From Sipunculus nudus (Eukaryota; Annelida; Sipuncula; Golfingiida; Sipunculidae), in assembly GCA_026874595.1 (NCBI GenBank), contig CM049318.1, forward strand, positions 49,568,750-49,632,749: 64,000 nt of DNA, given 5' to 3'. The notes below the pieces were generated by a model. The model was given only the letters and a program-made list of their open reading frames with translations, ran no database searches and was not told the origin of the DNA. Position numbers and translations under genes: made by a program. Within the stretch, counting starts at the first letter, position 1. Each line of letters starts with the position of its first letter. Below are positions 6,571-42,637 of this stretch, piece after piece.

Positions 6571-8170
6571 CCCCCCCCCCCCCCCCCCCGAAGATGGAGG
6601 ACTACTAAAATAGTTCCTCCGCCCGTCCGTCCCGCCCTATTCTTTTACCACATATCTTGCATCTTTCTTCACCAAATTTTACAGACCCACCCAGCACATG
6701 ACTGACATGTGACTTTCACCTGCTATGTGCGCCTCCACTGTTTAACGATTTTCTGCGCCTCAAAATGTTTTTTTTTTCATTTTACTCAGATAAGTCAGTA
6801 AATAAGAACACTTTAGCCTTCAAATCAAATGCAAGGTTTCCTTGGAGCTAGGTGAATTTAATGAATACTATATTGTATAGAATTATTTTCAGACAGATCT
6901 TTCAACTGGAGTTCAAATTTTGCTGATCGTGAAATTGTCTTATAACCTTCAGTCTGTCTGTCCTGCCCATTCTTTTACCACATTTCTCTAAGACCCGTGA
7001 TGCTTTTTTTTCACCAAATATTACACACTCAATACATAACCGCCAGGTGATTATCACCGGCAGGTGGCGCCACCTCTGTTTAACGGATTTCTGCACTCCA
7101 AATTCTTTTTTCAGTTTCCTTCATATAACTCAGTAAATAAGTACACTTTAGCCTTCAAATCATATGCAAGGATTCCTTGTGGCAAGGGAAATTCAATGAA
7201 TACTATATTGAAAAGAATTATTAGTCCCTTGCAATTTTACACACATGTTAGTCACATGACGAGCATGTCATGTATTCCTGCCGGTGGTGCCACCTGTGTT
7301 AGACCTACATTTTCAGCCCTCAGCTGTATTCGCTTAAATTTGGATAATTCAGTAAATAAGAAAGCTGAAGCCTCCAAATCATATACACACATTCCTTAGA
7401 GTAAGAGGAATTTAATTATTACTAAATGTAAAATGATTCTTTAATAAGATTTTTAAAATGATGCTTTAATATGTCTAACAATTCAGCAAATTCTGTATTT
7501 TCATTATTCCATTTTTTTGTGTGCAGAAGATTATTACAATGTCGGGTGGACACAATTAACATGTGACTGCTATTTGATATTTCACCGGCAGATGGCACCA
7601 CTTGTTGTCGTGTCCTCTCTTTGAGATGAAATGGTATTTTCTAGTTATTCTTGAAGTAGTCTGGAAATGTCTACTATATCATTCATATACCTCAGTCACA
7701 TCCATCTTAGAACATAAGAAATAAGATTCATGTGGTTAAAATGTGCATTTAAACAGAAATAAAATTCATGTGAATGGTTTACTGTATCCCCGGACTGAGA
7801 AGTTGGAGATACGGTTTTGATACGGTCGCGTAACCGCTGACAAATCTTAAGGTCATGAAGATTACCATGGGTGACCTTCACCTTGAATAGGTCCATTTGG
7901 TCCATTTTTGCATATAATCACCTGTATATGAGGAGTGGTTCAACAGATTAGCTCTTTGTTTATTTCTATGGAAAGCTCTTGGACAGCTTTATCAGGTATT
8001 GAACTCTGTTCGCGCCACCTGTAGTTATTTTTCAATTATGGCTGTCTGTGGGTCTATTTTAGATTAAATTTATTTCAGTAATACTGTAAGTTTCCGGCCT
8101 GAAATTTTGCAAAGTCATATATTGTGGATAGATTAATCGCATATATAAGACAGGTGGCGCCACTGATAAC
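6571..8170 (+). repeat. Degenerate tandem array of ~290-bp units with palindrome GGTGGCGCCACC
   Basis: A 19-base C run (6571-6589) is followed by a bulged hairpin, GGAGGACTA...TAGTTCCTCC (6596-6620). Units then recur with the order CCATTCTTTTACCACAT, TTCACCAAAT, ACATGTGACT, palindrome, CAGTAAATAAG, AGCCTTCAAATCA, GAATACTATATTG. Clear units start near 6,613 and 6,948; more diverged ones start near 7,223 and 7,480. The palindrome is exact at 7063-7074. It is degenerate at 7283-7294 (GGTGGTGCCACC), 7591-7602 (GATGGCACCACT) and 8153-8164 (GGTGGCGCCACT). This is probably the core of a non-autonomous transposon, but I could not fix both ends. Confidence 0.6.
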
Positions 8171-11100
8171 TGTGTGATGTTTGGTCTTTTTGTTTAGTTG
8201 CATCCATTACACAAGACACCTTTAGATCCTGTATTGTCCTATTTCAGCCAATACCAAGGGAAAGCCTGTCACAGAAAATACCCACATTTTACGCTCCCGA
8301 GGCAGCGGAAATCTTGCGCTTCTAAAGAAGATTTCTGATTTCTGAATTTCACGCTGCCAGCTTTGACCGTTTATGATATATTTAGACACCAGATGGCGGT
8401 TTGCTGTCCGCTGAAAAAAAAACGTACGTATGATGTGACAAGCAGCCAACCTGATGCCAATAAACAAACACTCGACAGGCATCCTTGCTCCTGCCATAGC
8501 TGCGCTTCAAGCGCCGCTTGGTGAGAGTTAACGGTCAAATTTTTATTGCTCCCTCTGTATTCTCGCATCATCGACCGATTCGATTATGACATTATGACTG
8601 TGTTAGCGTAGCCATGTATATGTTGTCTGCAGAACTAAAACCAGCCAGCGAGGTGTGCACGCAGCCTTTGTTGTTACGTTTCATTTGAATTACAACTAAC
8701 CGGCCGGGTGTCCTATGTGCAAAAGGTCCTAAGCATACCACGTCTGGGGCAATTCTCTTTGAGCCTGTGGCCTGTTCATACGGTTACCGGGGCGATGAGC
8801 TGTCACTCAAAACGAAATGAACATGATTGGCTCCGTGTATTCCTCGCTTGGCCGTGTCTTCCAGCACAAGGTCTCATCTGATTGGACAAAAATACAGTGC
8901 TCCCCCCTGGTGTAGCAATTCAGGATACGAGGTCATAACAAACAGCGCTAACGATAAGGAGTATAGGCCTATAGTTAAAGCGCTGTGTAAAGAGCGTACC
9001 CACATTTGAGTTATGCATGTGGCTGGGGACTATTTGTGCCTCTGGACCCTTGTTAATCACGTCACTCTGGATCCCTTCCCTGCCATGAGGGACATACGAC
9101 AGATATGTTTGTTTTTAAACAAGCATATAGTATCCAACCTTAAAGTAAATTTATTCAGTTTGATAATTATCCGAATATGCATTTTGAAGAAACTAAACCT
9201 GTGATATATATATATATATATTAAACATAAATATCGTGGTTAAGTAGGGCTTTCAACCTTATGCAGCACTAAAACTCACTCTTGAGTATGTGATTTCTTT
9301 GTTGTTTTGAATTTTTTGGCTGTTACGAAATTTTCACCTGCTTCGTTCTGAGTGTGTTTAAGTTTCTGTGCACAGATCCCAGACAGGTCAGCCATATCTT
9401 AAGAGATTTTCTTGATTGATAAATGTCATGCATATCATCTTAATATAAAACCTAATCGTGATGTGTGTAAGTGTTACACATCTTTCCAACGTGACGGCCG
9501 TGTCAAGGATACGGAATCTCGTCTGTGTTGGGCATGTTCGTAGGAAATGTGATTAGTCTGAGATAGGAAATACGATGCAAGTACCAACCCCGCAATTTAA
9601 ATTTGAAACCCTAACGGGCATTAATTTCTCGTGCCGCGAGGCGCGGCTTTAACCGAATCATGAGAACAATATACGTGCTTTCCCTTAAGGTCGAACTGGC
9701 TGAGAATATATTTGGCATCCCGATGATAATTGAATATCTTACGACCCTGTATAGGTCTTACATGTAATGAATTGGGTGACAGAACGTCTAGCCGGACCTA
9801 CTTGTGACTTATTGAGAACAAATTTAGTTCTCAAGCACACAATCTGAAACCAGAAAAAAGGTTAACAATGGGACCACAGAAACCCAATTTCATAAGATAT
9901 GGTCTACCTTCTCAATGTCGTCTCCGACAATTTATCTCCTGCATCAACTGTTTGTCAAAACCATGGCTTTCTGTCACTAGGCACGAAATGCTTTTAGATT
10001 TTCAAATCTTTCCTGATGTGGTCTGAAAGGGGTACAAGAGGTTCGCATTGGCTGTCGAAAGATTTCCCACCTGCAATTTGCTGCATTAAAGGTGAATTTG
10101 ATTTGATATATTAAAGCAAGAATTATATCTATCTGTAATATTATTTAATATTCATCAAACGAAAAAGGGTTTCTAAACCTCCACATGAGCGCTTGCAATG
10201 ATTGTAGACAGTAACGCTAAGACGTTAGCTGAACTATTGACGTGGCCGGAACCGATCCCGAGGAATTTATTAAATTATCAAAAAAGTTATTTTATATTTA
10301 CTTACCCCGAATACTGGCTCCAAGGCCGGGAATCTCTGCTGCAGCTGGGGAACAAATTGATCTGTGCTACAAATGGAGAATGAATCGTGCTTTTTTGCCG
10401 AATAACATGAGGCGACATCTAGCGACCGAGTGTCACACTTCCTGTATCATTCAGAGTTTGATCCCATGAATAAATGAAAACCTGCATTCTAAAGAATATA
10501 AGCTTCCGCCATGTGGGGGTCCCTATCGTTGGATGCTACCTAAACCCACCCTTTCGCCATAGGTCTTTAGTACTCGAAATGAATCACTTCCTGATAGGCA
10601 CTGTGGGAAGGCCGGGACTACTTTGTCACAACAGTCAAACTTTAAATAAAAATTTGTTACATTTCAAGGAAACACGTTCTGTTTTATGTTTCACACTAGC
10701 TGACAAACCCGGCATACCGGGCTTTTTACCGGGTTGGGAAGATGTTTAAATTGACAGAATCCTTTTTGATAGAAAAAATTCAAAGAAAATACAGATTTTC
10801 AGTAGTTTACAGTCTCAATAAGATATGTACAATTATTTTGTAAACAATTATTTTGTGGCGCTGTGCTCGTGGCGAGAAATTCATACACCGGTATGTTGAC
10901 CTTGAAGACTTGGTCAGTGGTGATTTTTACATTAATTTGCGAACCGGAATGGGACGCGGGGACCCTCCAGGTTTCGATGACCTTTGACTGGTTACTATTT
11001 TTGGACGTTTAAAGTACAGGTTAATGTGAGGAAGACATTCTTTCAACATAGCTTATCTTAACCTCTAATTTAATCGGTGAAGGAAGACATGAAAGACGAA

Positions 11101-12100: not shown

Positions 12101-12720
12101 AGTACTATGTTTAAGGTGGATTTGTAATGATACAGGTTCCCTGATATATTTTAGAATGTTCTCATTGAGACCTTAAACAATATTTGTAATATGCTAATTA
12201 GATCCGTCGCAATTAACAAAAATTATGCTGTTTCCAGTATCTCAAGAACTACCTTTGATAAAAGGCCAAACACTATGTCGACCTGGGTTTTCATGGTCAA
12301 AGATTTAAATAAAAGCATGCTAAAAAGAATTGGGATTATAATTTTTTAAAATTTTTAAATATGAAAATTACGGGGACCTTTGACAGAAAGTGTACTTTTT
12401 CCATCATCCCAAGAACTAACAATGATACTTGTTGAAACATTATGCTTATATAGATTTTTTTATGGTTGAAGATTAATATAAAAGCTTAGCAATATTGGTT
12501 TGCAAACATCTTTAATTTTCGGGGGTTTTTTTCTTCGTTTTCTCAAGAACTTCACATAATAATTGGGTCAAATATTCTTAATCTTGACCAAGTTTTCATG
12601 GTCAAGAATTATTTTAAATCATTAACAAGGGCTGAGAACATTTTAATTAGTAATTTGTAAGTAAGCATGATAAAAAAACCTATTCTTCTTTATCTAGTTT
12701 AATTGCGTATAGCAAACATG
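12100..12720. repeat. Diverged tandem array, left part
   Basis: Related ~130-170-bp units are marked by CAAGAACT (near 12,243, 12,409 and 12,543), followed by a TTTCATGGTCAA or TTATGGTTGAA box and an AATTTGTAA or AATTAACAAAAATT box. Similar boxes (GTTCTTGA, CTTTGACCATGAAAA, GGCGGCCCTAATTTGCATA) return at 16,330-16,541 and 17,378-17,640. The three stretches look like parts of one old array later interrupted by other elements. Confidence 0.45.
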
Positions 12721-13076
12721 TTAACCCACAGGAATGTGTAATATTTCTATATAGAACAAGTTGGATCTAAAGTATCAGTCATTGCTCTGCGTGTCGTATG
12801 CAAGTTTTAAATTCTTGTGCCCAACCTGCTCTATATACAAGCAAAATATGTCGCCATGGATGAATAACGTATATCATAGTATTTCAAGTATATGGAAACG
12901 ATGATATTATTTTATCCGCCAAAACAGAGTTTTGCGGATACTATGTTTTCAGTTGCACGCCGCCCCCGCCGTCGCCTAGGTTTCCGGAGAACTCCTCCGT
13001 AACCACATTGCAGAATTTTTTAAAATTCGGAATTATGATGTGGTCACATGTGAATTGCTGTGCCCTAATTTTTGGT

Positions 13077-13089
13077 TGACCTCTGACCT
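13077..13089 (-). promoter_or_regulatory. DR1 nuclear-receptor-type motif in Helitron A1 5' domain
   Basis: On the minus strand this reads AGGTCAGAGGTCA: two perfect AGGTCA half-sites one base apart, the classic DR1 arrangement bound by RXR, HNF4 and COUP-TF-type receptors. It sits at the same place in the 5' domain as the sites at 13,768, 14,065 (one change) and 23,524. Binding in this animal is inference. Confidence 0.4.
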
Positions 13090-13767
13090 TTCCTCTCTGC
13101 CCAGCGTCCATTTGTTCGTTTGTTTCAACACATAAACCCACATATCTCGGGAACCGTTGGACCGATCGGGTTGGAATTTTATATGTTTGTAGCTTTTGGA
13201 TAGCTTTATATTGTACAAAAAAAACTGGTGGCGCCACCTGCAACCAGTTTGGAACATTGTCCATCTGTTGGGTTAAAATTTCTTCTATCTCTGCAGTGGT
13301 TGGACTTATCCACCTGAAATTTTGCATGTTCATATATCTTAGGTATCTTTTTGGATTTTATGACAGGTGGCGCCACTTAAATTCACGTTTACGCTGCAGA
13401 AAACCAAGCTCATATCTCGGGAACCGTTTGACCGATTGGGCCAAAACTTTGCATGTATATATATCTCACATAGCGTTTTATAATATGTAACACAGGTGGC
13501 GCCACCTATAGCCATTTTTGCATGGCGTCCATCTGTTTGCCCGCTTTTGGAGAAATTACTCGTATCTCTAGTGAGAGTGCTTTTATTCACCCGATATTTT
13601 GCACAATTATATATCTGGGATAGTTTTTTTTCATTTATATGGCAGGTGGCACCACCTACATTCACGTTTATGCTGCAGACATCCATGCTAATATCTCAGG
13701 ACTGGTTTCACATATAAGCCTTATACTTTGCATGGGTAAATCTTACTTCAGCGCCCTCATTTTAGGT

Positions 13768-13780
13768 TGACCTTTGACCT
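13768..13780 (-). promoter_or_regulatory. DR1 motif in an internal copy of the Helitron 5' domain
   Basis: The minus strand reads AGGTCAAAGGTCA, a perfect DR1. It lies in a partial internal duplication of the 5' domain, followed by the same CTTTCCTCTCxGCCCAGCGTCC context as the first copy. Confidence 0.4.
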
Positions 13781-14799
13781 TTCCTCTCGGCCCAGCGTCC
13801 ATTTGTGCGTCTTTTTACACATATAAAGCCACATTTCAAGAACTATTTGACCGATCGGGTTGATATTTTGTATGATTGTAGCTCTTGGTAACCAATTTTT
13901 GCACAGTGTCCATCTGTTTGTCTGCCTGGTGAAAATTACTCATATCTCCGCCGCCGCCGCCGCGTTCGTTTCCGGAGAACTCTTCTGAGACTACTGGACC
14001 GATTTTTCCGAAAATTACACCAATTATCGGGTCACATGTGAGCTGGTGCCTAACCATTCGGTGTTGATCTCTGACCTTTCCTCTCTCCAGTGCGTCCATC
14101 TGTGCGTCTGTTTTGACACATTTATCAACATATCTTCGGACTCGTTTGGCCAATCAGGAAAACATTTTTACACAGATGCAGCCCTTTAATACCTTTATAA
14201 CATACACCAAAAAGTGGCGCCACCTGCTACCATTTTTGCAGAGAGTCCATCTCTTCGTTTTCCTTTGGTTTAATCACTCATATCTCGGTAGTAGTTTGAC
14301 CATTCACCTGCAATTTGGCATGCGTATACATCCTGGATAGCTTTCTTGATTTTATGACAGGTGGCGCCACCTACAATCACGTTCATGCTGCATATATCCA
14401 TGTTAATATCTCCGGACTGGTTTGACGTACCTGCCTGAAGGTTTGCATGTGTTTGGATCTCACATAGCTCTTTATCATACAAGAAATTGGTGGCGCCACC
14501 TGCAACCATTTTTGCACAACGTCCATCTGTTTGTCTGCTGTGGGATAAAATCACTCATATCTCGGCACTCGTTTGACTTTACCACCTGAAATTTTGCATG
14601 TGTAAACATCTTGGATACTGTATCATTCAAATAACAGGTGGCGCCAACTAAAATCATGTTTACGTGGCAGACATCCATGTTAATATGTAACACATCTAAC
14701 TCTATTTACCCTTGCCACTCAATCCATGCCCCACTTAAAACCGTCCTACTCTGATTCTGGCGGACACACGTAGTCGCTTGTCGACTACCAGTATTCTAG

Positions 14800-16541
14800 T
14801 TTAAATATGTTATTTTCCCATTGAATTTTCATTACCAAATATTGCTGTAAGAAAATATGGAAAAATTTTTGTTAGTTATTTTTTTTTTAAAATGTGCAAA
14901 TTATTGCGCAATTTCTCATCTATCTTCCATAATATTTCTACCATTAGAGAGATACAATATTTAAACCTCTACTGAATATGATAACGGATTCTAAACATCA
15001 AATATGCAAATTTATTCATGTATAGTTAATCCAGATGAAAGGCAAGTTTTACCTCTAATGACCAATGCTAAACTTATTTTGACGCAGTTCCTTCAAGTTG
15101 GTATCAAAATTAAATGAACGGTTACGGATACTTCCCTTTGTGTATCTTATTGATAAAGTTAACTTTTTATAGATTAACTGCCCAGTATATATTTTATAAA
15201 ACAAGGCTGCAGAACCTGCGGCAGGAGTAACACGGGAAGGACCAAATACATATCATTTGAAGAGCATTATTAAAACCGTCAGAAACATTTTGATAATTAA
15301 ACTGCTGACAACTTTTTTTCATATGGCCATTTTGCTCCCTTTTTTTTACCAATTTTGTGCCCAACAGTCACAATCAACAAATTAGTACAAAGGGTTTACA
15401 TTTTAGATCAGTTGTCTCTTAACGACCTTGGGCGATGTATACAGTATGCCATTAACAAAAGGTGTCCCTTCTCCAATATTTAAGTACTCACCTTGAAATC
15501 GGTCAAATGTAATGTCTTAACCTAGATTTTAATGTTCATTGATTTATATAAAACCATGTTAGCAAGGTTGGATGCACATTTTAAATCTTATTATGCAAAT
15601 GATGTTTGGGAATTTTATTTTTTTCAGTATCGCCATTGTAAACCATTATTATTCGACTACATGCTGTCTTCTTTGTGTCCACCAAAGGTAAACGTGTTCG
15701 GTCTTCATTTTTTTTATATTATTACGCAAATCAAGAGAGCCATCTTGGAATACTGGCTTGTCTCTAATATGTAAGAAAAGAGGATGAAATTACAAAAGAT
15801 GATATTTGTGTCTGGCTTTATTTTTCATTGTATCTGGAACACCCTCTTTGCAACAATAAAATTCAGATCAGGTATTAAAGATGGAGTAACATAAACCTTT
15901 AACACATTCACTGAAAAGTCCATGTTCACCCCCAGTGCCAGGGCCATATACAAGGACCCCAACAGTCCCGAGAGCTGCAGTGGTATCAAGACTAGTATAG
16001 GTGATTGGCACTGGGGGAATCATAATAACTGACGGGTATACACGTCATTGGCAGCGTATGTGTTAAAGCTCATATTGTCATCACTTGTCTTAATGGAATA
16101 CCTACCATTGATTTTGCATTGAACTAGTAATTATAACCCTTTGGTCAGGCATTGAGTTACAATTAGCTCATTATAAATCCATCGGCGGGGAGATGTGATT
16201 GGCATTTGGACTTAGAAAATGTAAATGTCGCTTGTACAGGGAGATGTTCGAGAACGCAAGGATTATAAACTGGTAAATAACGTGCAATATATCTGGGTCT
16301 AGGTAAATAATTTACCAATAATCATATCTGATTCTAAAGATATTGGAAAACGTTTATTTCCTGTCAATGGCGCCCTTAATTTGCTTATAACAAACCATAT
16401 GAAAATTTAAATTGATTCCTAACCGTTGTTGATATTCTTTGATATTGATCCTTGACCATAAAACCTAGGTCTGAACAAATTTTTGGAACATTATTGTTAG
16501 TTCTTGATATAATGGAAAATTATTGTTAGTTCTTGAGATAG
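14800..16541. other. No gene seen; AT-rich spacer and old array remnants
   Basis: No exon or RNA gene recognised. A stretch at about 16,330-16,541 has boxes of the diverged tandem array (CCTGTCAATGGCGCCC, CCTTGACCATAAAACCTAGGTCT, GTTAGTTCTTGA). The latter part, ATTATTGTTAGTTCTTGA, is duplicated immediately before the solo LTR. Confidence 0.45.
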
Positions 16542-20705: not shown

Positions 20706-22518
20706 TATTAACAGTGGGGACTGTGAGGCAAAGACGGTTGATCAGTCCTTCGATACCATGGATATGTGGTTTAGTGTTTTTTTTGTGAATTTTAACTTAC
20801 AAATAACTCAATATTACTAAAAAGCAGAAAGGGATAAACCTAATTCCAAGCTTTAGTCATGCAAGCATGATTTGATTACATCTATATATCCCTCCAAACT
20901 TCCGTTGTTTATCGTCCTGTTTACAGGTTTAAGGTTTACATGCACTGGGTTTACTGGGTTATATTGATTTGAATATATGTTTTAAGATAGCTTTCCGAAA
21001 ATGGAGAAGATGAAACTATAATGAGTTATTACGGACACTGTGTAGTTAAAGTATTCCTGAAAAGGGTGTTCACCATATATGAGCTTTACGTCATACCACG
21101 AAACATTTAACTATTACGTAGTCATACAATTGTATATACAGAATATTTTGAAAACGGTTCATTGTCCTGAAAAAAAAAATATGTATATAACAAGAGACCC
21201 AGGGGTCTAATGTTCACTCTGTGAATTACTGTGCAATTTGGCATGTGATTAAAAAAAAATGAATGTGAAAATACCATTCATTCCTTTCCAAGTAGACATT
21301 GTCCTATTGCACAAGGAAGGTGGCGCCACCTATCTGGTTTATGAGAAAACTTTCCAAGATGACTGCACATGCCAAATTTCAGACCAATACTCCTGAGATA
21401 TGGGCCATTTTCACCCAAAGCAAATGTATGAATGGACACCACAGGAAAATGATTGCAGATGGCGCCACCAGTCTTGTTTACGAGATGGAGGTGACGAAGT
21501 TCTATGGACATGCACAATTTCAACCCAATACACTGAACAAACACTAAGACAATCAGATGGCAAATGCAAAGTTGGACACTCCGCAAAAAGTATTGTAGGT
21601 GGCGCCACCTGTCTGGTTAATGAGAAAATTTCCTAGATGGATAGACATGACAAATTTCAGATCAATACATTGAACCACTTCTGAGATATGAGCAATTTTC
21701 ACCCACAGCAAATGTACCAGGGATGCCATGGGAAAACGATTGCAGATGGCATCATCAGTCTTGAGTGTAAGTCTGAGGGGTCCAAGATCTATGAATATGC
21801 AAAATTTCAGCTAAATACGTTGAACCACTCCTGAGATTGAGGGTTGTTATATAAAAGAAACCAAATTTGTACTGCACAAAAAGGTTCTCCATCATTGTTA
21901 CCTATAACTACATAGGTGATGGAACAAGTATGCCAGGTTTTGGAAAGATCAGTCCAAGAGTCCTAGAGGAGACTCTGTTTTTGTGGATTATAACAAATAA
22001 ATACTTAATGACATAAGCAGAAAACACCATTACAGCCTGCTGAAAGTAGCAAAACTGGTGGCACCACCTGGAGGTCAAAATCATTAAGCAGTCACATGAT
22101 CAATATTCCTGTGAAATTTGAAACTGAAGGCTGCAGCAGTCCTAAGATATTTGGTAACAGACAATACATCATGTATAGAAACACATCAAGTTCCGTAGAT
22201 ATGCCATTTTGAAAATCACCTGACTGAATTTATACTCAAATTATTCCTCTTCCTCTAAGGAACTGTTGACTATGAAATAGCCAAAGTATTTATACTTTAT
22301 GACATATCTTGGAAAAAGCAGAAAAGACCATTACAACCTGTAGAAAGTAGGTAAACAGTAGGTCAAATTATTTAGCAGTCACATGATGCAGTTCCTAAGA
22401 TAGTTAGTAATAGACAATACATCATGTATAGAAACACATCAAGCTGTCAAATTTTGCAATCGACACAGTTCCATAGAGACGCCATCTTGAAAATGAATTG
22501 ACTGAATTTATACTAAAA

Positions 22519-23701
22519 CTAGAATACGGGTAGTCGACAAGCGACTACGTGAATCCGCCAAAATCAGAGAAGGACGGGTGAGGTGAGGCATGGATTGAGT
22601 GGCAAGGGGATATAGAGTTACATGTGTTAAATATTAGAATGGATCTCTGCCACAGAAACATGATTGTAGGTGGCGCCACCTGTTATTTGAACAAGAAACT
22701 ATCCAAGATATATACACATGCAAAATTTCATGTGGAAAAGTCAAACCACTGCAGAGATATGACTGATTTTATCCTACAGCAGACAAACAGATGGACGCTG
22801 TGCAAAAATGGCTGCAGGTGGCGCCACCATTTTTGTTCATGTTATAAAGCTATCCAAGGGCTACATTTGTGTAAAAAATTTTCCTGATTGGTTGAATGAG
22901 TCCGGAGATATAAGCATGGATGTCTACAGCGTGAACGTGAATGTAGGTGGCGCCACCTGTCATAAAATCAAGAAAGCTATGCGGGATGTATAAGCATGCT
23001 GAATTTCAGGTAATTTGGTCAAACCACTGCAGAGATATAAGTGATTTTAACCAAAGGCAGACAAACAGATGGACGCTGTGCAAAAATGGTTGCAGGTGGC
23101 GCCACCTTTTGTTGTGTATGTTATAAAGCTATCCCAGGGCTACATTTGTGTAAAAAAATTTTCCGGATCGGTCAAACGGTTCCCAAGATATATGGATTTA
23201 TGTGTGGAGCGTTAACGTGAATGTAGGTGGCGCCACCTGTCATTAAATCAAGAAAGCTATCTAGGATGTATATGCATGCTGATTTTTAGGTGAATTAGTC
23301 AAACCACTGCAGAGATATCAGTGATTTTAACCCCAGGCAGATGAACAAATGGACACTGTGCAAACATGGTTGCAGGTGGCGCCACCTTTTGTTGTGTATG
23401 TTATAAAGCTATCCCAGGGCTACATTTGTGTAAAAATTTTTTCCGGTTCGGTCAAACGGTTCCTGAGATATATGTGTTTATGTGTGGAAACAGACGCACA
23501 AACGGACGCTGGGCAGAGACGAAAGGTCAGAGGTCAAGGTCACTTGGTTAGGCACCAGTTCACATGTGACCCGATAATTTGTGTAAGTTTCGGAAAAATC
23601 TGTCCAGTAGTCTCAGAGGAGTTCTCCGGAAACGAACGCGGCGGCGGCGGCGGCAGAACCCGGTCAAAAACATAGTATCCGCAAAACTTCGTTTTGGAGG
23701 A
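22519..23701 (-). mobile_element. Non-autonomous Helitron, copy A2, inverted and nested
   Basis: This is the second copy of the element at 12,915-14,799, in opposite orientation. On the minus strand it starts TCCTCCAAAACG, folds on GTTTTGCGGATACTATG, and carries a GCC-repeat stretch. It ends with the same perfect hairpin GTAGTCG-CTTGT-CGACTAC (22,530-22,548), seven bases, then CTAG (22,519-22,522) followed by host T. Six exact palindromes GGTGGCGCCACC lie at 22,669, 22,817, 22,946, 23,095, 23,226 and 23,375, so spacing alternates 148, 129, 149, 131, 149. Flanking sequence on both sides is the 341-bp unit of the host element, broken between TATACTAAAA and AATTATTCC. Confidence 0.75.
23524..23536 (+). 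promoter_or_regulatory. DR1 motif in Helitron A2 5' domain
   Basis: It reads AGGTCAGAGGTCA and is followed directly by AGGTCA shifted by one (GAGGTCAAGGTCA). Position and orientation relative to the Helitron 5' end match the sites in copy A1. Confidence 0.4.
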
Positions 23702-25031
23702 TACAATTATTCCACTTCCTCTGAGGAACTGTTGACTATAATATGAAAGCCAAAATATTATTACTTTATGACTTATCTTGAAAGAAGTGGAAAGGAACAT
23801 TTTGTCCCAGAGAAAGTAGGTCAACACAGCTGGCGCCACCTGGAGGTCAAAATCATCTGGCAGTCACATGATCAATATTCCTGTGAAATTTGAAACTGAA
23901 GGCTGCAGCAGTTCCTAAAACATTTGGTAACAGACAATAATACATCCTGTATGGAAACACATCAAGTTGCTAAATTTTTCAACCCTCACAATTTGAAGTT
24001 CTATAGAGATGCCAACATGAAAATGATTTGACTGAATTTACACACAAATTAATCCCCTTCCTCTAAGGAACTGCTGACTATGATATGAAGGCCAAAATAT
24101 TAATACTTTGTGACTTATCTTGAAAGAAGTGGAAAAGATCATTTTTTTCCCGCAGAAAGTAGGTCAACACAGGTGGCGCCACCTGGAGGTCAAAATCATT
24201 TAGCAGTCACATGATCAATATTCTTGTGAAATTTGAAACTGAAGGCTGCAGCAGTTCCAAAGATATTTGGTAACAGACAATACATCATGTATAGAAACAC
24301 ATCAAGCTGTCATATTTTGCGATCGACTGAATCTGAAGTTACATAGAGATGCCATCTTGTAAATGACTTGACTGAATTTATACTCAAATTATTCCCCTTC
24401 CTCTAAGGAACTGTTGGCTATGACATGAAGGCCAAAATATCAATACTTTGTGAGTTATCTTGGAAGAAGTGGAAAAGACCATTTTATCCCGCAGAAAGTA
24501 GGTCAAAACAGCTGGCGCCACCTGGAGGTCAAAATCATTTAGCAGTCACATGATTAATATTCCTGTGAAATTTGAAACTGAAGGCTGCAGCAGTTCCTAA
24601 GATATTTGGTAACAGACAATACATCATGTATACATAGAAACACATCAAGCTGTCATATTTTGCGATCGACAGAATTTAAAGTTCCGTAGAGACGACATCT
24701 TGAATATGACTTGACTGAATTTATACTCAAATTAATCCCCTTCCTCTAAGGAACTGTTGGCTATGATATGAAGGCCAAAATATTAATACTTTATGACTTA
24801 TCTTGAAAGAAGTTGAAAAGACCATTTCATCCCGCAGAAAGTAGGTCAACATAGGTGGCGCAACCAAAAGCTTATTTTTGCATGTCCATCCCATGATCAG
24901 TAATTCTGCAAAGTTTCATGAAGGTAGCTGCTGTGGCTGTTGAGATATTTGGTAACAGACGGTGGACAGTGGACAGTGGACAGTGGACGGCGGACGCTGC
25001 GCCATGGCATAAGTTCACAGAGTGAACTAAA

Positions 25032-27654: not shown

Positions 27655-29017
27655 TGTCATTGCTTGCCGGAACTTCGATTTCGGCAAGCATGTTTGTCAG
27701 TTGCGTATGTCTGTTTGTGTGTTTGTCACGACTCTACGGGCCACAATTTTGCAGGAACCGCTTTGAAACTTGCGGAGATGATGGAAAACCAAAAATCCTA
27801 GAAGCCTATTGTTTTTGGTCTAAAAAAAGTTAAAGGTCAAGGTTATAAAAACTTTTATTTTTTACGTCATAAATGCATTTATTTTAGTCCTATCTTTACA
27901 AATTATGACTCATTTTTTTCTCTGCAATTTTTCATCACCTGGTCTTGTCAACTTTTCTCAAACTAGTGTTAGTTGTCAGTATGTCTGTCTGTTTGTCAGT
28001 TGTCACAAATTCCAATTGCTTGCAGCTTCTTGTGTCCTACATATTGCATTCTACAGGCCACGGTTTTATAGGAATCACTTTGTAGCTTACTCATATTGTA
28101 TGTCGGAACGATTTCTGGAAGTCTTAAGTATATTATTTATATAGGTCAAAGGTCAAGGTAAAGGTCATGTAAACGTGTCAAAATCATAATTTCCTCATAA
28201 TCTTTAATATTGGCCCTGTGTTTATAAACTATAGCTATTTTCTTCCTATTTGTCTTCTCAATTACCTGGTGTAGTCACCTACCCTCCATACATACATAGA
28301 GATGATTTCCGGAAGTCCTATGTATATTATTTAAATAGGCCAAAGATCAAGGTCAAAGTCATCGAAACATTTCGGAATCTTATTTTCCCTTAACTTTTTT
28401 AATAGTGGTCCTATTTTCACAAGCCATAGCTCATTTTCTTCCTACATGGTCTTCTCCAAAACCTGCTCTAGTCACCTAATATCTCAGATGTGTCACTTTG
28501 TCAGTATATCTGTTTTTCAGCGGTCCTCAGTTTCGGCTGCTTGCTGGTTCTTGCGTCTTACAATGACCATTCTACAGGCCACATTTTTGGAATCCTTTTG
28601 AAAAGTGTATATCTCATATCGTATACATATATCTCGAAAATATATTTTTATTTTCGGAAAATAGCCACTCGAAAGATTACAACATAACATTTTTTCGCCA
28701 TATCTCGTCCTAAATTGGTTCTAAATTTTGCGGGCTTTCTGTTTCTTGCACTTGACATAGAGCATTCTACAGGCCATAGTTTTCCAAGAATCACTTTGTA
28801 ACGTTCGCGTTTTATATATAGGAACCATTTCTGGAAACTGTATATGTATTTTATAGAGCTTAAAGTTCAAGGTCAAGGCAATCAAAACCTTATTTCCCTA
28901 ATAGCTTTGCCAATATTGGTCCTATCTTCAAGAACAATGTCCTATTTTCTTCCTTTTTTTCATTGCTCATTAATTTGAGTATTACTTCGTCATTACCGGC
29001 AAGCGCTCGACCTCTAG
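27655..29017 (+). repeat. Tandem array with AAGGTCAAGGTCA boxes, possible Helitron-like element
   Basis: Near the left end is a hairpin GCTTGCCG...CGGCAAGC (27,662-27,690). Near the right end CCGGCAAGC recurs, then GCTCGACCT and CTAG (29,014-29,017) followed by T. Between them are about five degenerate ~240-340-bp units. Each carries a GTCTGTTTGTCAG-type box, a TTCTACAGGCCA box, a GATTTCTGGAAGTC box and an AAAGGTCAAGGTCA-type box, then TTATTTCC and TCTTCC. A 3' hairpin before CTAG is not convincing, so Helitron membership is less secure than for the elements at 12.9, 22.5 and 41.2 kb. Confidence 0.45.
28143..28155 (+). promoter_or_regulatory. DR1 motif in tandem array
   Basis: AGGTCAAAGGTCA is followed by AGGTAAAGGTCA, giving four half-site-like words in a row. 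Other units carry decayed forms (AGATCAAGGTCAAAGTCA near 28,345). Confidence 0.35.
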
Positions 29018-29599
29018 TCGTTTTCTTTTTTGAGCAATAAATCAAGTTAGGTGTCGTAGCTAGATCATATTTCCCCTGTAAATCTTTATGGATTTTGACA
29101 TTATTTTGCAAAGGGTCTAACGCAGCGACATCGAACAGAAACTTAGCCAGAGTTTCCAGCTCGTCCCATTGAAAACCCGTACGTTGCAAACTCGTCCATG
29201 GAACACCTGTCCTGGAGGAAGTCGCGAGGACCTGTCTTAGCGCAAAAACGGATATGTTAGCTACGTGTGCAGTGCGAAAACATTATTTATTTCAATGGCC
29301 TGAATATATTTCTCATGGCTGCGCCAAAAACATTATCAAATTATCAAGCAGTGACCTGTCATTGTGCGGTTGAGTCGATGCTAAATTCATAGATGGTGAT
29401 CGTTTAGACTAATCAATAGAAGATCGATAATATCATCTCCGTTTTCGTTTTCAGCTGGCAACGACATTATTTAGAGAGCTTGGTTTCTTGCGTAAAATAT
29501 GTGACGAATTCAGTACTACTGATCATGTGATGTCACATTATTGCGCATGTTTTGTATTGTAATCTATTGGAGGAGAAGTACCTATACCGGATAGTAGTA

Positions 29600-32624: not shown

Positions 32625-33620
32625 TATAGAGTCCATTCCATCCCTTCATGTGCATCTATTTTTGCAAAGAAATATTTTTAGATACATTTCAAGGGTAAAA
32701 TGGTAATGCAGGATTGAAGATTAAGGGCATAATTTTCATCAAGGTAAATAAATACCTACCTTACACCTTATTTAAAAAACAGAATTATAAAACAAGTCAC
32801 CCATGGGTCATGACTCCGAGCTGACTAGGAAGACATTCACAAAAGGAATTTATCATCTGAATGACAAATTTTGCAGGTAGTACCCGCATTCAACTGAAGC
32901 ATAACTGGGAGGATATTGGTAACAGAGACCTAATCTCAGGCTTCCAAGACATTTTTCAGGGACCTCACTGGATGTCAAGGTAGACGATTCTATGTACAAT
33001 GGTTACGATTTGTGCCCTGTTAACAGACGACCGTACCTTTGAAGGTCTAAAAAATAGAGAAAAATGCGTAGAAATGGTAAAAATACATGTGGCGCTACCA
33101 GTCTGCAGGAACTAATGAAACATTTGATGATCAATATGCATGTAAAGAATCATGGTGATCAATGCATCAGTTGTTCAGATACTGGAGCTTTTGTATAATA
33201 TTTTCAATTATTCCGGGGGTATACTTCTGAGCCGGATAGCTCGGTGGATATGGGTAACAGAGACCTAATTTCAGGTTTCCAAGGATATTTTTTATATGGA
33301 CTCCCTACATGTTAATTTGGAAGATTTTAGGTCCAATGGTTACGATTTGTGCCCTGTAACGGACGGACGGACAGACTGATACACAGACAGACGAACAGAC
33401 AGACGGACGACGGAAAATGATTGATCGCTATAGCTCAGATGACTTTCAGTCAGCTGAGCTAAAATATATATGGGAAATCCTCATTTTACAAAATATCAGC
33501 CCGACTTATGGTGGTCATGGTCATTGGTAAAGGCAAAAACAACCTCAATTGATAGCTGCTGATTGGTTGATGTCATGATGTCATATAACAAACTAAAACA
33601 AAGATGGCTACTCATGCAGG
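32625..33620 (+). repeat. Dispersed repeat R, copy 2 (interrupted)
   Basis: It aligns with 1,890-2,215 on both sides of the insertion at 32,792-33,464. Left-side boxes TACATTTCAAGGG, GAAGATTAAGGG and TACCTTACACCTTATTTA, and right-side boxes ATTTTACAAAATATCAGCCC and CTTATGGTGGTCA, match the first copy. Confidence 0.55.
32792..33464. mobile_element. Small element with ACAAG...CTAAAA ends
   Basis: The left end is ACAAGTCACCCATGGGTCATG, followed by CGAGCTGACT. The right end is CAGTCAGCTGAGCTAAAA, whose reverse complement carries AGCTCAGCTGACT, matching the left subterminal block. It is inserted between GAATTATAAA and TATATATG of repeat R, which is intact at 1.9-2.2 kb. The inside has two ~300-bp related units, each with a GGTAACAGAGACCTAATxTCAGG box and a GGTTACGATTTGTGCCCTGT box, and a GGACGGACAGA/CAGACAGACG tract. 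A decayed palindrome (TGTGGCGCTACC) lies at 33,089-33,100. It is the same element type as 21,190-25,031. Confidence 0.6.
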
Positions 33621-36112: not shown

Positions 36113-36114
<2 letters not shown>

Positions 36115-36230: not shown

Positions 36231-36345
36231 GGTGGCGGCACTGAAAGTTGCAGCTATTATCTCCTTATAGTGGGCACCTCTATAAAGTGGGCAGTTTGGC
36301 CAAGTCCCAAGGGTGCCCACATTATAGAGGTTCGACTGTATTTAG
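36231..36345. repeat. MITE end fragment with inverted repeat
   Basis: CTCTATAAAGTGGGC and GTGCCCACATTATAGAGG are inverted partners around GGCCAAGTCCCAAGG, ending in TTCGACTGTA. This style of end (a TCGAACCTCTATAAT-type terminus) is seen in pogo/Tigger-like MITEs. A decayed palindrome, GGTGGCGGCACT, lies at its left edge (36,231-36,242). Confidence 0.4.
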
Positions 36346-36410
36346 TTTCATTATTTGTAATTTTATATATATATATTTGTAATTTTATATAAATATATTT
36401 TTTTAAATTT

Positions 36411-36925: not shown

Positions 36926-38357
36926 AAGCAATATCCTTATGATGGACAAACCTTTGATTTCAGTTATCACGGCATGGAGCTAAGCAAGTAATAATTTTAG
37001 TTCTTTATACGGGACTTGGTATTAGTTTCATAAAAAAAACTGTAAAAACATCTAGGCCGACAAGCATGACAAAGAACGATCAAAAATGCTTAACTTAAAA
37101 TTGATCACAATCCTATGGGTTGTTCTGCCACTCAGGCGTCTCAAGAAATTAAATATCCACGTTTGGGTGGTTAGGCTGCCCCTTATATTAGCCGAAAAAA
37201 AACACGATATTTTTCGTACTTGTCAAAATCAGCATTAGGCCTATATCATGGGTTAACGAATCTTATCGCAAACGGAATGCAAGAATGCTGTGGACTTATA
37301 ACCAACGCAGATTAAACCACGGCGAGTCTATCTAAGCGCCGAGTACAAGTCCTTAATATTTAACTACAAATGTGTCCATGGCTAGTTTTCCTAGCCCGAG
37401 ACGAGGGCAGTTTTAATTGAAAATATTGCATGCTCCTTTTGCTCCTACTTTTGATTTTAAGTTCATTGAATCTAATCTATTATTATGTGTTATTTATGGA
37501 TCTCAATCCAAGTCACTCCCGATCCAGTGATGTAAAAATAATATGGTACTATTTTTTTTTCAAAACAAACTACAATCGCGGTTCAGGTGTGACAAAACAA
37601 TCTGAAGGTTTTACTCTAATGCACCCAGAGAGCGCATATACCTCTCCAATGACGAAGTATACCATTAAAATATCATTCTCCGGGGATATAAACGATAATA
37701 ATGCTTCAGCCAGACAAAGAACAGTTCAGCCGATGTTCTCTAGATCCGTCACGTGTTTATGACGTGGTGGAGTATTCATACGGTGCCCGTGGCGCCTTTT
37801 CAACTTGAAAACTGTTAATTCACAATATTGCTTTGGCGCCTGTAAATCCCCATTTTCCGACAGGCTTAACGCTGTTCACTGTTCTGCTAGACTGAAGCCT
37901 TAGTCCTGGTCGGGACAATGTCAACTTCGAGATCTAAGGGTAGTTCGGAGATATAAAAAAGAAAGCAGAAAACAAGATAAAATACATATATTATTTCGAG
38001 TCGTACACCGATTTTCTCTTGTTTCTTATGATTTACATGACGGGCAACACGTAGCCGTTCAATCCTTAACGCTATGATACTGACCTGTCCAAAATAAAGG
38101 CGTGACCACTGTGACGGAAACCAAACTGATAAATAGCCCATCAAATTTAAGTTTATACCTTCTTTTATGCGGCCACTGCGACACAAACTCACACTTGCTC
38201 ATAAAAGCTCATCTAATTAAATGAATGGACATGTGTAGTTTCGGGGGGCTTCTTTACTGTACCGGCTTCATAGATTTTTTGTATGTATAAGGCTGTTATA
38301 CCTGTACATAGAATGCCGGGCTATTTTACCTGTGCCTGTAACTTAAACGTCCTGTAA

Positions 38358-38358
<1 letters not shown>

Positions 38359-38447
<89 letters not shown>

Positions 38448-38606
38448 GCCAAAGGGCCATCTTTGTACAGTGACCACCTCCAAATATAGACCACTTGTTT
38501 ACAGTCCCGATTCTTTTTTTTTTCTTATTTCTATTGGTCTTTTTGTTCTCTCTCTGTCTCTCTGGTTCTCTCGCTCTCTCTCTCACTCTCCCTCTCTCTC
38601 TTACTC

Positions 38607-38660
<54 letters not shown>
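38359..38660. repeat. Duplicated composite microsatellite (CT)n(TA)n
   Basis: (CT)n at 38,359-38,403 runs into (TA)n at 38,405-38,444. After about 100 bases (with TACAGTGACCACCTCC, a MITE-like piece) a second imperfect (CT)n at 38,548-38,610 runs into (TA)n at 38,611-38,660. The same compound order twice suggests duplication. Confidence 0.85.
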
Positions 38661-38663
<3 letters not shown>

Positions 38664-39540
38664 GTGCGGAGATCTAGAAAAACCATGGATCATCGTCCGT
38701 ATCCCTGCAGACCATCCCCAACCAAAACTTTCAGGGTTCCACTCCTGGTCTGATCGTTCTTAACCTACTTCCTTGGGGTCTGAAGGACTCATATGAAGCC
38801 TTTATATATCTTGCTTGCAGACAACCTCGTGTGAAGACAGCCTCTTCTGTCGGGGATAATTAATAAACGTCGCCGCGAGTCGTCCCACCATTCCGTAGCA
38901 GTAATGTTCTTACGGGAGTTACGTAAACAACACGTAGACCTATGTGTGATCTCGCATGTACTCTTCCGTTGTTTGACGTGGTCTAGCTTCGCTTCTCAAG
39001 CAGCGGTAATACACTGCAGTCGTCCTAGCTCTCCTTGGTTTTTAACCGCTGTCCTGTATAGCAGGATGCAGTTGGTTCTGATTACACCGGTTCTGGCAGA
39101 GGGCCAAGAATTAGACCAACGAGAGCAAGTGTTGCATGTTTAAAATTTGGAGCTGGGTGCACATGCAGTGCGATACCATGCTATCTCATTGTTCTCATAA
39201 CAAGTCTTTGCTCTTAGTGGTGGAACACAGAGAATCTTGCAATACACAGCAGCGGTTAAGCAACATATGTCTGTTTACTTGAGAAGTTTCTGGAGTATAG
39301 TTTAAATATGGAGAGCAGATAAATTGTAAAGAGGTTACTTGTATATTACACTTCATGACATGAGATCGTTTGCTTAAACAAGCGAACACATACGCCATCA
39401 TAGCCTTATAAATATTATATAAAACATCTCCTTTTGAATAATAGCGTTTTTACTGAAGCTTCACAAACATTACTAACACGTTTGCAAAGTTCAAAATACG
39501 TTTAACATGTTTTTTACGACTTTTAATGTTTTTGATTATT
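38661..39540. other. No gene seen
   Basis: Mixed-composition sequence with short frames on both strands. Nothing with a recognisable domain or splice context. Confidence 0.45.
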
Positions 39541-40015
39541 AAAGGGGTCCAATCACCAATAAAGCATGTTGAATTTACACGAAAAATAGCTTCTTCCCTT
39601 TAAAATAAATCTGTACCTGCCAAAATATTGCCTTTAAACCGTTTGCTTACTCATGTGCTTACTCATGTTACTCACGAGTGTTAAAAACAGTGGACCGGGC
39701 GTGTCAATATATACACAGTGCGTGGACCCGTGAGCATCGCGAAGCCACAACACGTGTCAATCAGGAGATGATGCCCTGATTGACTTGGCCCAAAAAATGT
39801 AATACGTGTTCCTGCTGGCTGAAACACCGAATGTTGCGGCTCATAATCGGACCTTCGGTCGCGCTGCCTTATTTTCTGTTCTTAAACAAACACACATGGA
39901 CTGTGTTTACCAACACGCAGAGCCACCACAAGGTGTTAAACAGCTATATGCGAGGTAGCGGGACTGTGTGGTGGGATGGTTTTGCCGGGAAGCTTTTGGA
40001 TAAAGCAAAACTGAA
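39541..40015 (+). repeat. Dispersed repeat T, longer copy
   Basis: A moderately GC-rich block starts AAAGGGGTCCAATCACCAAT and ends near GGGATGGTTTTGCCGGGAAG and AAGCAAAACTGAACTAA. The end matches 58,890-58,990 (GGGATAGATTTGCTGGGAAA, AAGCAAAAGTGAGCTAA). Inside, a palindromic stretch TGTCAATCAGGAG...CCTGATTGACTTGG (about 39,755-39,787) forms a hairpin. No coding function. Confidence 0.4.
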
Positions 40016-40410
40016 CTAATTGTGTGAAAGAATAGGCTTAATATTGCTACTGATTATGTCTTTAAATATTTTACATGAAAATTCATATTACAAAATTAAA
40101 CCATCATAAACCAATCTATAATCCTTACAGTGTGTTATTTCATTTTCCATATATTTAGTGATTTGTACAGTTGCCTAAAGGTGGCAACAAACGTTGTACA
40201 TTAAAGCGACAGTGATATTAAGATTATCGGTTAAGCGTTAAGACTTCTTCATCTCTGGAAATCCTTCTCTGGAAGTCATATGACATAAAGTTGTGTCCCT
40301 GAAAAGCAATTTTACATCGAAGAAAACGCGGACTAATTATAAATATTTGCATGCAACTTATCGCACTCTCATGTAATAACAAAAGCGTGTATCACAAATA
40401 TAACTAGAAA

Positions 40411-40673
40411 TCTACATTCCAAGGAATACAAGCCTCCGCCATGTGGGTATTCACTTATTCGGCCCATATCTCAGTTTCATCCATGCATGAGTAAACGAAC
40501 ATTTGTGAATATTTCTTTATGACCCTCCTTAATCCGAACCATGTGCCTTATCCAAAATCAAATCTTATCAATTCTTTATTGGCCCATTCCCAAAATGCCC
40601 TGAACAATTTCATGAGATTCCTTTATGAATAAAGAGACACGAACGCACACACAAACAGGAACGGGGATGAACG

Positions 40674-40739
<66 letters not shown>
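40411..40739 (+). mobile_element. Hairpin-headed MITE family, copy 5, ending in (TA)n
   Basis: Head hairpin CTACATTCC-AA-GGAATACAAG, then GCCTCCGCCATGTGGG, ATTCACTTATTCGGCCCAT, TGAATATTTCTTTATGA, TTATTGGCCCATTCCC, TTTCATGAGATTCC, an (AC)/(AAAC) tail and CGGGGATGAACG. (TA)n then replaces the 3' end (40,675-40,739). Confidence 0.6.
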
Positions 40740-40742
<3 letters not shown>

Positions 40743-41213
40743 TTACCTTTAAATACGGTATTTCCTTTTTACGAATTTCTAATTTAAAATTTATAATTAA
40801 GTTTCGAATTAAGTTTCTAATTAAAATTTGTCTCCGCAGATTTCGGGTTTACTTGTGATGAAATTCCTTGACACTTTGAAATTTAAGGATGCAATTAGTG
40901 TTTTATGAAAAGATCCCCGGTTAATTGTTATAAGGCCTGCTATAATTAACTGCGATACCTGAGGGATAAGCAATTGATACTTTATCATTTAACGGGTTCA
41001 AACATGTACATAATCTTTACACTTCTTTTATATATCTGGAATGTTAAATGTTGGTTTAAGAAACTTATCTGTATATGAGATCAATTAATTTCTTTTTTAT
41101 TAACTGAATTACAATAAAATGCAACTGGTTTGAGAGGGTATTACATATTAGCTTTTTCTTAATTAAGCATGTACTATTATTGTTATTACTATTGCTATTA
41201 TATTATTATTTTA
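40740..41213. other. No gene seen; AT-rich spacer
   Basis: AT-rich sequence with TTATTA repeats just left of the Helitron-like element. No exon or RNA gene. Confidence 0.5.
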
Positions 41214-42637
41214 TCGCCAGTCAAAGTCTGGAGATACTATGGTTTAGGCACGGTTGCGCCGTCTCCGTCGCCGCCGCCGCAGAGATTTCGTTTGGACGCG
41301 ATAACTCAAAAAATATTTTACGGATCTTTACCAAACTTGACATGTGCATAGATATGGGTGAGGGGACGAAGCCTATATAAAATGGGGTCATGACCTTTAC
41401 TAGGAGAGTGACCTTGTTCTTGAATAAACCAAATTCTTTAATATCTCAAGAAATCTTTCATGGATTGATCCCAAACTGGAAACTGGTGGCGCCACCTGTT
41501 ATCCTTTTCTTGTGTTCGTGCCATTTAATACCCCCATCATTGACACTTAACAGTTTTGTGAGCATTATAAGTCACGACTAATGGACAGCTTTCTTTCATA
41601 TTATGCATATACATAGACGTGGGTTATGGGATGATGTATATTTAAATTGGGGTCATGACCTTTCCTATGAGAGCGGGTTTGACCTTGAATATTGCCATAT
41701 ATGGTGAAAATCACACTAAATCATAAATATCTCAATAAGGGATGCATGCATTGGTCCAAAAATTAAATTGACTGAAAATCTTGGATAGCTTTGTCTTTTG
41801 CGGAAGACAGGTGGCGCCACCTTCTGTCTTTCTCTTGTTTCGTGCCTTTTAATACCCCATCATTGCCACTTGACAGTACTGTGAGCATCATAAGCCTAAA
41901 ACTTATGGACAGATTGGGCTGAAATTGTGCATGTACATTGATACCTCCATCTTGTATTCAAGACTTGGAGGCGCCATCTGCAATCGTTTGCAGTGGCGTC
42001 CATCTGTATATTGTGCTTTGGGTGAAAATTGCTCATATCTCCGGAGTGGTCCAAGGTATTGGTCTCAAATTTGACATGTCCATCCATCTCCGAAATTTTT
42101 CTCGTAAACCACACAGATGGCGCCACCTACCTTCCCTTTCTTTTGTAGAATGAATTAATGCCCTTTTCTGAGGAGTGATTTGCACTATTGACCTGAAATT
42201 GTGCCTATCTATAGATCTCGGACTCCTCCATTTTGTACGCAAGACAGGTGGCGCTATCTGCAATCGATTTGCCATGGCGTCCATCTGTATATTTGTTTAC
42301 GATGAAAATTGCTCATATCTGAGGAGTCCTTCAATGGGTTGGTCTCCAATTTGGTATGAACATCCATCTGGGAGAGATATCTCGTCAACCAGACAGGTGG
42401 CTCCACCTACCTTACCATTTTTATAGTATAAATTTATCCCCTTTTCATAAAAGTGATTCTCTTTATTTGCCCCCATAATTTGTGAAAAATATTGTTTCTC
42501 AAGTTGATAGATGGAAGAAACCACAGTCGCTTGCCAAATGTCAGTGTATGCTGCTGAAGATGGGGACCAATCTTAAAGGGGGGGGGGATTAATTGTCTGG
42601 CGATACTATGGCACCTGCGGTGCCAAGAAATATCTAG
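41214..42637 (+). mobile_element. Non-autonomous Helitron, subfamily B
   Basis: The 5' end TCGCCAGTCAAAGTCTGG leads into GAGATACTATGG, like the GGATACTATG of the A copies, then a CCGTCGCCGCCGCCG run. The 3' end has hairpin GGCACC-TGC-GGTGCC (42,610-42,624), nine bases, then CTAG (42,634-42,637) followed by host T. The sequence GTCTGGCGATACTATGG before the hairpin repeats the 5' arm inverted. The body has units with palindromes: exact at 41,485 and 41,810; variants at 41,967 (GGAGGCGCCATC), 42,116 (GATGGCGCCACC), 42,247 (GGTGGCGCTATC) and 42,396 (GGTGGCTCCACC). The last four are 130-150 bp apart. These units match, in reverse, those at 21,319-21,756. A 10-base G run lies at 42,578-42,587. No Rep/helicase gene. 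Confidence 0.7.

Follow-up and report, generated by a model that had tools for sequence, protein, structure and literature searches.

A 12-bp palindrome in the tandem repeats of Helentron-like elements of Sipunculus nudus as a candidate CTCF-type protein-binding site

The 12-bp palindrome GGTGGCGCCACC, which is found in the tandem arrays of several transposable elements of Sipunculus nudus, is proposed here to be a protein-binding site, most likely of the CTCF type, that is kept by selection in the central repeats of non-autonomous Helentrons (HINE); judging from the sequence, we would put the probability of this reading at about 45%. The window, i.e., the whole 64-kb stretch of DNA that was analysed, is AT-rich (GC content of 32-42% per 2 kb) with abundant repeats, and the palindrome occurs there in 16 exact copies, 13 copies with one mismatch, and 5 with two. 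The total of 34 contrasts with 100 dinucleotide shuffles, which gave 0.42 copies on average and never more than 2 at up to two mismatches. Indeed, among the 12-bp palindromes that are not made of A/T only (29 examined), GGTGGCGCCACC ranks at the top with its 16 copies, and the others have at most 2. An earlier, sequence-only reading of this DNA had claimed about 30 exact or near-exact copies beyond chance, and this claim is borne out by our counts. Arrays are present at 6.6-8.2, 13.2-14.7, 21.3-25.0, and 41.5-42.4 kb, in agreement with the earlier description, and the palindrome copies in them are located at 7.0-8.2, 13.2-14.7, 21.3-24.9, and 41.5-42.4 kb.

Some details of that description need to be modified. 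Of the two decayed copies, the one at 33,088 has a flank similar to the 341-bp unit and can be retained; for the other at 36,231, no unit context was found by eye, and the copy may have occurred by chance, given that 0.42 copies are expected at up to two mismatches. Also, the unit of about 290 bp (a period of 280 in TRF) turned out to be a dimer of units of about 130 and 148 bp, each of which bears its own palindrome. The rule of one palindrome per unit is valid in general but has exceptions: the palindrome is missing from a 341-type repeat at about 22.24-22.52 kb and from a truncated unit at 13,841, and that of the unit at 21,746 is degenerate with four mismatches.

The palindrome had been considered to be shared by different transposon classes; the carriers, with D set aside, instead resemble HINE (Table 1). 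Their layout is the one described in passages on Cg_HINE of the Pacific oyster (Vojvoda Zeljko et al. 2020, PMC7492417), namely, a 5' subTIR with an inverted repeat, a microsatellite, a satellite-like centre, and a 3' subTIR with a hairpin. Between the end modules, a microsatellite (types CCG, GTCC/GTCT, and CCACTGT) followed by central tandem repeats was recognized by eye, with the internal repeats of E being too diverged for a TRF call and X being essentially one palindrome unit. For the inverted subterminal ends, 300 random segments drawn from the window served as a control, and the number of segments scoring as high was 0 for C, 2 for B, 19 each for A3 and E, 65 each for A and X, and 269 for D. 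A subTIR is thus evident in C and B, weak by itself in A3 and E, within the range of chance by itself in A and X, and unsupported in D. As for a 5' hairpin beside the subTIR, 15 of the 300 segments scored as high as X, 43 as E, 69 as A, 123 as C, 180 as A3 and as B, and 257 as D; when the ends and the 5' hairpin were combined, 5 segments were as good as X, 5 as E, 14 as A3, and 19 as A. The 3' hairpins, listed without a chance control, are GTAGTCG/CGACTAC in A (at its right end) and A3, ACCCATGGGT in X, that of B given in Table 1, and AGACCC/GGGTCT in C, the last one identified by eye from the 3' end; the 3' hairpin of E is ambiguous.

Table 1. Elements carrying or lacking the palindrome and the best-scoring CTCF-like 19-mers in the window (p-values refer to the hand-entered vertebrate matrix)
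Feature	Position	Strand	Description
Element A, probable HINE	12912..14801	+	Left end TATCCGCCAAA next to a complementary repeat; microsatellite rich in GC; 8 units with the palindrome
Element A3, A family	22520..23706	-	End words as in A; nested in C; 6/6 palindromes exact
Element B, HINE	41212..42637	+	subTIR TATCGCCAGTCAA; CCG-type microsatellite; 6 palindrome units; 3' subTIR; TGGCACC/GGTGCCA hairpin
Element C, HINE	21190..25028	-	subTIR GTTCACTCTGTGAAC; two arrays; interrupted by A3
Element D	6567..8220	+	GTCC-type microsatellite; 5-6 diverged palindrome units (7,824 doubtful)
Element E, probable HINE	27661..29035	+	Diverged internal repeats; internal comparison
Element X, probable HINE	32795..33461	-	One decayed palindrome (33,088); flank like 341-bp unit (TATTGATCAT)
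CTCF-like 19-mer TGACCTCCAGGTGGCGCCA	23831..23849	-	Identical at 24,174 and 24,513; p 1.8e-9 each
One-base variant of TGACCTCCAGGTGGCGCCA	22,059		Over palindrome; p 5.6e-8
CTCF-like 19-mer TCACCGGCAGGTGGCGCCA	7054..7072	+	Over palindrome; p 9.6e-9
TCACCGGCAGATGGCACCA, relative of TCACCGGCAGGTGGCGCCA	7,582		Over three-mismatch palindrome; p 7.7e-8

B and C are, therefore, well supported as HINE. A, A3, and X are probable HINE, an assignment that for A and A3 rests mainly on the layout, the common end words, and the 3' hairpin; E and X are fairly supported as HINE. The random-segment control weakens the HINE reading for A, A3, E, and X; it removes this reading for D, of which the left end was placed by eye only and neither a right end nor a 3' hairpin was found. 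The odds of the main reading are left as they were, since it builds on the constraint and on the motif described below. Element A, furthermore, has a second, internal left end at about 13,948, which is reminiscent of the tandem truncated copies mentioned for oyster Cg_HINE in the passages of PMC7492417. In C, the 139-bp units are located at 21.3-21.8 kb and the 341-bp units at 22.04-22.52 and 23.7-24.9 kb.

Many units have a layout in common, which was traced by eye: ATATCTC, TTTGACC, GAAATTTTGCATG, GGATAGC, the palindrome, and GTCCATCTGT. When the A, B, and C139 units and the last D units are aligned on the palindrome, ATATCTC, TTTGACC, GAAATTTTGCATG, ATC..GGATAGC, and GTCCATCTGT-like words stand in register, again by eye. 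A profile of the upstream flank only, which was built from 25 units chosen via the palindrome and is hence not independent of it, gave 26 matches at E<1e-3; in 24 of them the palindrome is where it should be, with no more than two mismatches, and the other two are one unit with a degenerate palindrome and one truncated unit. A further partial match at 13,699 (E 0.006) is without the palindrome. The 341-bp units at 22,057, 23,829, and 24,172 (E 2.2-6.3) and the copy at 33,088 (E 1.5) match the profile weakly but consistently in position and strand, and from these sequences they are likely to share descent with the other units. These landmarks beyond the palindrome point to one ancestral unit. 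An ancestral unit and a functional site had been presented as an either/or; the evidence favours both together, and descent alone is not enough to explain the conservation of the palindrome. According to the passages on oyster Cg_HINE (PMC7492417), its monomers in different clusters have two conserved segments in common and differ in the remainder; one of the two may correspond to this palindrome, although those passages name no palindrome within the repeat unit and give no function for the two segments. The oyster repeats are mostly 140-180 bp (PMC7492417, in part), whereas the units here also reach about 130 and 341 bp.

A comparison of substitution rates inside and outside the palindrome had been suggested as a check of function, and its outcome is in favour of function: the palindrome diverges less than the rest of the unit in all six groups, though weakly in C341. 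The respective divergences are 0.024 and 0.274 in A_a (7 units), 0.071 and 0.338 in A_b (7 units), 0.156 and 0.498 in B (6 units), 0.181 and 0.475 in C139 (4 units), 0.250 and 0.597 in D (6 units), and 0.117 and 0.201 in C341 (5 units), where the flanks of B and D could be aligned only roughly and the palindrome itself served to align the D units. Other 12-column windows with an equally low value numbered 0/139 in A_a, 0/139 in A_b, 0/141 in B, and 0/138 in D, against 5/141 in C139 and 20/139 in C341. As the palindrome was singled out for being conspicuous, such comparisons carry a selection bias.

The constraint also appears when the differences are divided by how they are distributed among units. 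Variants common to at least two units are found in 3 of 48 palindrome columns versus 123 of 434 flank columns (four alignments; Fisher p 4e-4), and private differences, i.e., singletons, in 10 of 312 palindrome cells versus 207 of 2786 flank cells (p 0.003), with columns and cells treated as independent in these tests. The counts cover 26 units (all 14 of A, 4/5 of C341, 4 of C139, and 4/6 of B) and leave out 24854 (C341), 41485 and 41810 (B), D, and any column with more than one gap. Variants common to units probably arose while the elements spread, and private differences would mostly be later decay; the deficit in shared variants thus suggests that the constraint was strongest during the life of the element. 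C341 shows the opposite in terms of shared variation (1 of 12 palindrome versus 1 of 110 flank columns). Within the palindrome, furthermore, constraint is tighter on the eight inner bases, with 9/264 substitutions versus 13/132 at the four outer ones (p 0.018) in 33 units, a tally without 7824, 21746, 33088, and 36231.

Which protein might read the palindrome is suggested by its core. The CTCF motif is about 19 bp long and has the core AGRKGGCRS. GGTGGCGCCACC contains the CTCF core AGGTGGCGCC on both strands, and in an exact copy the core (A)GGTGGCGCC is present on both strands at once, so that an array would offer a cluster of sites free of orientation; in the window, AGGTGGCGC was counted 18 times on one strand and 20 times on the other. 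The 127,964 positions of the window were scanned with a hand-entered version of the CTCF matrix of vertebrates (JASPAR MA0139.1), after four motif words had been tried. Ranks 1-6, the six sites with p<1e-7, are all on palindrome copies (Table 1). When the matrix columns were permuted 600 times, the top score was attained by 1 matrix, a top six entirely on palindromes by 1, and an equal lead over all other sites of the window by 2, and 7 equalled the number of palindromes in the top 20. The 19-mers at 7,054 and 7,582 differ in two bases, both at positions where the matrix takes G or A. The sites in A, B, and C139 score at p 7e-7 to 3e-4, that at 21,746 at 0.01, and the C341 unit at 24,854 at 2e-3.

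The upstream CC module of the CTCF motif (positions 4-5) is present in 8 of the 35 units: 4/5 in C341, 3/6 in D, 1/14 in A, 0/6 in B, and 0/4 in C139. When three D1 units and the C341 unit at 24172 were compared with one another over the 12 upstream bases, offsets -6, -5, and -2 were identical in 6/6 comparisons; the first two correspond to the CC at motif positions 4-5 and the last to position 8. Motif positions 1-8 match in 30/48 cases versus 66/186 farther upstream (p 9e-4, which is too small a value as the pairs are not independent). Offsets +12, +14, +17, +27, +29, +39, and -34 are also identical in 6/6 comparisons, and the fixed bases are thus not confined to the motif. The upstream flanks of D1 and C341 share GTGACTGCT..GAT and hence are not independent witnesses. 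Based on the motif, the CTCF reading is supported for the C341 and D unit types and only possible for the A, B, and C139 types.

As the upstream CC was seen in no more than 8 of the 35 units, 7 belonging to C341 and D, the reader might instead be another, truly dimeric host protein that recognizes TGGCGCCA with its GG/CC arms. A winged helix of the E2F/DP type, a zinc finger for a bipartite E-box (CAGGTG-GCGC-CACCTG), or some other factor would be examples. The dyad symmetry of the palindrome is perfect, and full mirror symmetry is not a feature of CTCF sites and fits a dimer better. The tighter constraint on the inner eight bases is also in line with a dimer, as is the absence of the CC on both strands in 13/14 A, 6/6 B, and 4/4 C139 units. 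The E2F palindrome TTTGGCGCCAAA, however, has T/A-rich arms around GGCGCC instead of GG/CC and scores at most 9/14 at the palindromes, while the best E2F-like sites of the window are elsewhere; a match to the E2F palindrome was therefore rejected. The bipartite E-box was set aside as well: of the 59 CAGGTG matches in the window, 27 are no more than 10 bp away from one of 31 palindromes, but so short a word carries little information. Moreover, a dimer would leave unexplained the fixed CC at motif positions 4-5 in D1 and C341, and we regard this alternative as somewhat unlikely.

The palindrome might also serve the element itself as a cis site, either as an iteron-like site for the Helentron Rep/helicase or as a hairpin at a second-strand origin in rolling-circle transposition. 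Such a role would suit its location in repeats within HINE-type elements and the constraint seen mainly in variants common to units, i.e., during the lifetime of the element, and a 19-nt single-stranded DNA could fold into a 5-bp stem with a GCGC loop. This hairpin is, however, weak (-3 kcal/mol, z -1.1), the arms pair elsewhere in the best fold of two native stretches (z 0.4 and -1.0), and the loop is no freer than the stem, with 5 substitutions in four loop bases and 17 in eight stem bases; a hairpin origin was thus rejected. Also, the probable HINE E has internal repeats with no palindrome within 2 mismatches (one word with three at 28,268), so that mobility may not need the palindrome. A cis site of the element is accordingly unlikely.

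Plain common descent, where the palindrome is the luckiest word of one ancestral unit and is maintained by array homogenisation, would account for the further landmarks that the units share. Some selection bias in favour of a conspicuous word is certain, and the equally conserved windows in C341 (20/139) are what such descent would produce. In four of the six groups, nevertheless, no 12-column window is as conserved as the palindrome, which in addition has a CpG, a dinucleotide known to decay faster where germ-line DNA is methylated. We thus consider descent by itself quite unlikely to suffice.

A recombination or array-expansion point, at which units duplicate or exchange, is very improbable: palindromic motifs are proposed as aids to tandemisation in passages of PMC11136912 and PMC8268682, and similarity does switch at the palindrome in the end unit of the C341 array (24,854), but the homology of other units continues, by eye, across the palindrome on both sides, which leaves this earlier suggestion with little support beyond that one array end.

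With a palindrome of the CTCF type, each array, having about 3-8 units, would form a cluster of sites without orientation at a spacing of roughly 130-340 bp. The upstream CC is kept in the majority of the C341 units and in half of those of D, and six of these units amount to near-complete CTCF sites. The elements might profit from holding a chromatin protein, for instance if open, insulated chromatin allowed them to stay transcribed and active, and spreading elements would distribute ready-made sites through the genome; binding of the protein, the benefit to the element, and any effect on the host are what we infer here. A broader proposal, which we make tentatively and with considerable doubt, is that the arrays of Helentron-type elements in an invertebrate are clustered, orientation-free CTCF sites under selection as a cis requirement of the elements and, by their spread, have seeded the genome with many candidate insulators or loop anchors; the satellite-like arrays in genomes of the oyster type would then be CTCF platforms. 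We know of no explanation for the frequent short satellite-like arrays in Helentron-type elements, and a conserved protein site in the units would tell what these arrays are for. Should CTCF be the protein, they would be an invertebrate counterpart of the mammalian story on transposons and CTCF and open a direct route to asking whether transposons shape the 3D genomes of non-vertebrates.

In mammals, the dispersal of CTCF sites by transposable elements, SINE B2 in particular, was reportedly described by Schmidt et al. in 2012. The likeness is that a transposon family brings the CTCF motif to many places; here, in contrast, the carrier is a DNA element of the rolling-circle type in an invertebrate, there are several tandem sites per copy, and the evidence comes from sequence only. 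The CENP-B box is a short protein-binding word conserved in diverging satellite monomers, a similar principle with a sequence different from this palindrome. ISX and ISY of Drosophila miranda are Helitrons. These two elements, according to passages of PMC6598467, have spread binding sites for dosage compensation, which is alike in that a transposon amplifies the motif of a chromatin protein; the motif and the protein are different, and the motif here is in satellite-like units of several families. Transposon-linked motifs at loop anchors were detected by Micro-C in placozoans (TIRs of Mutator) and ctenophores (non-CTCF proteins), as stated in parts of PMC12221973, and likewise tie a transposon motif to the 3D genome outside vertebrates, whereas the present case is made from the DNA letters.

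As for the protein, passages of PMC10658182 report CTCF orthologues in molluscs and annelids, those of PMC9023564 an enrichment of a CTCF-like motif at TAD boundaries in squid, and those of PMC12407938 CTCF-like motifs at coleoid loop anchors. At echinoderm boundaries, CTCF-like motifs are described as weaker and without orientation, with no enrichment at loop anchors (PMC13317027, in part). Our search of titles, abstract starts, and passages, with few subscription journals covered, gave no paper that deals with this palindrome or with CTCF sites borne by Helitrons in invertebrates. Judged by titles and abstract starts, the exact 12-mer appeared in the context of bacterial chitinase only, AGGTGGCGC as a CTCF consensus in HTLV-1 only, and TGGCGCCA with E2F or palindrome in parasites and a downy mildew only; nothing on such sites was found for Helitron with CTCF motif or for CTCF, oyster, and transposable elements. 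GGTGGCGCC was not found in the bivalve literature covered by the search.

The coding content of the window was also surveyed. No match was obtained in the window with Rfam at the gathering threshold, no tRNA was detected there, a search of phage records with one 301-base unit gave no match, and the same was true for a PDB search with the ORF at 51,078-51,632. A Pfam search with 20 of the 30 stop-to-stop ORFs that reach 100 aa or more hit no transposon domain; the ORF at 939-1241 matched VWA (1.3e-5), along with AIRC at 0.007, below the cut-off of that family.

A second conserved box lies beyond the palindrome, the 12-bp word kept in the tandem units of several elements (table), and was also observed at a like distance (~20 bp) past the palindrome in several further units. 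This box is similar to the GTCC microsatellite of HINE (non-autonomous Helentron) left ends, and in the predicted fold of 13,480-13,560 it could pair with a palindrome arm. The counts of GTCCATCTGT per strand were 7 and 2.

Coordinates of the second box and the CTCF-like site
Feature	Sequence	Position	Remark
Second conserved box	CGTCCATCTGTTTG	14519-14534	~20 bp beyond palindrome
CTCF-like site	TAGACACCAGATGGCGGTT	8383-8401	p 5e-7, rank 9 in window (vertebrate CTCF matrix)

Element A is probably composed of head-to-tail copies truncated at their inner ends; a second, internal left end was noticed at 13948. Also, the 341-bp array of element C, a HINE (21190-25028), is interrupted by element A3 (22520-23706), both on the minus strand, and A3 is younger than C because it sits inserted in that array. 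The element at 27661-29035 is probably of HINE type; its internal repeats are diverged, with self-matches spaced 194-716 bp, and were not called by TRF, lack the palindrome and showed no unit landmarks by eye.

The open frame 939-1241 matches Pfam VWA (E 1.3e-5) and may belong to a host gene as one of its exons. The CTCF-like site contains no palindrome and lies directly past the array of element D.
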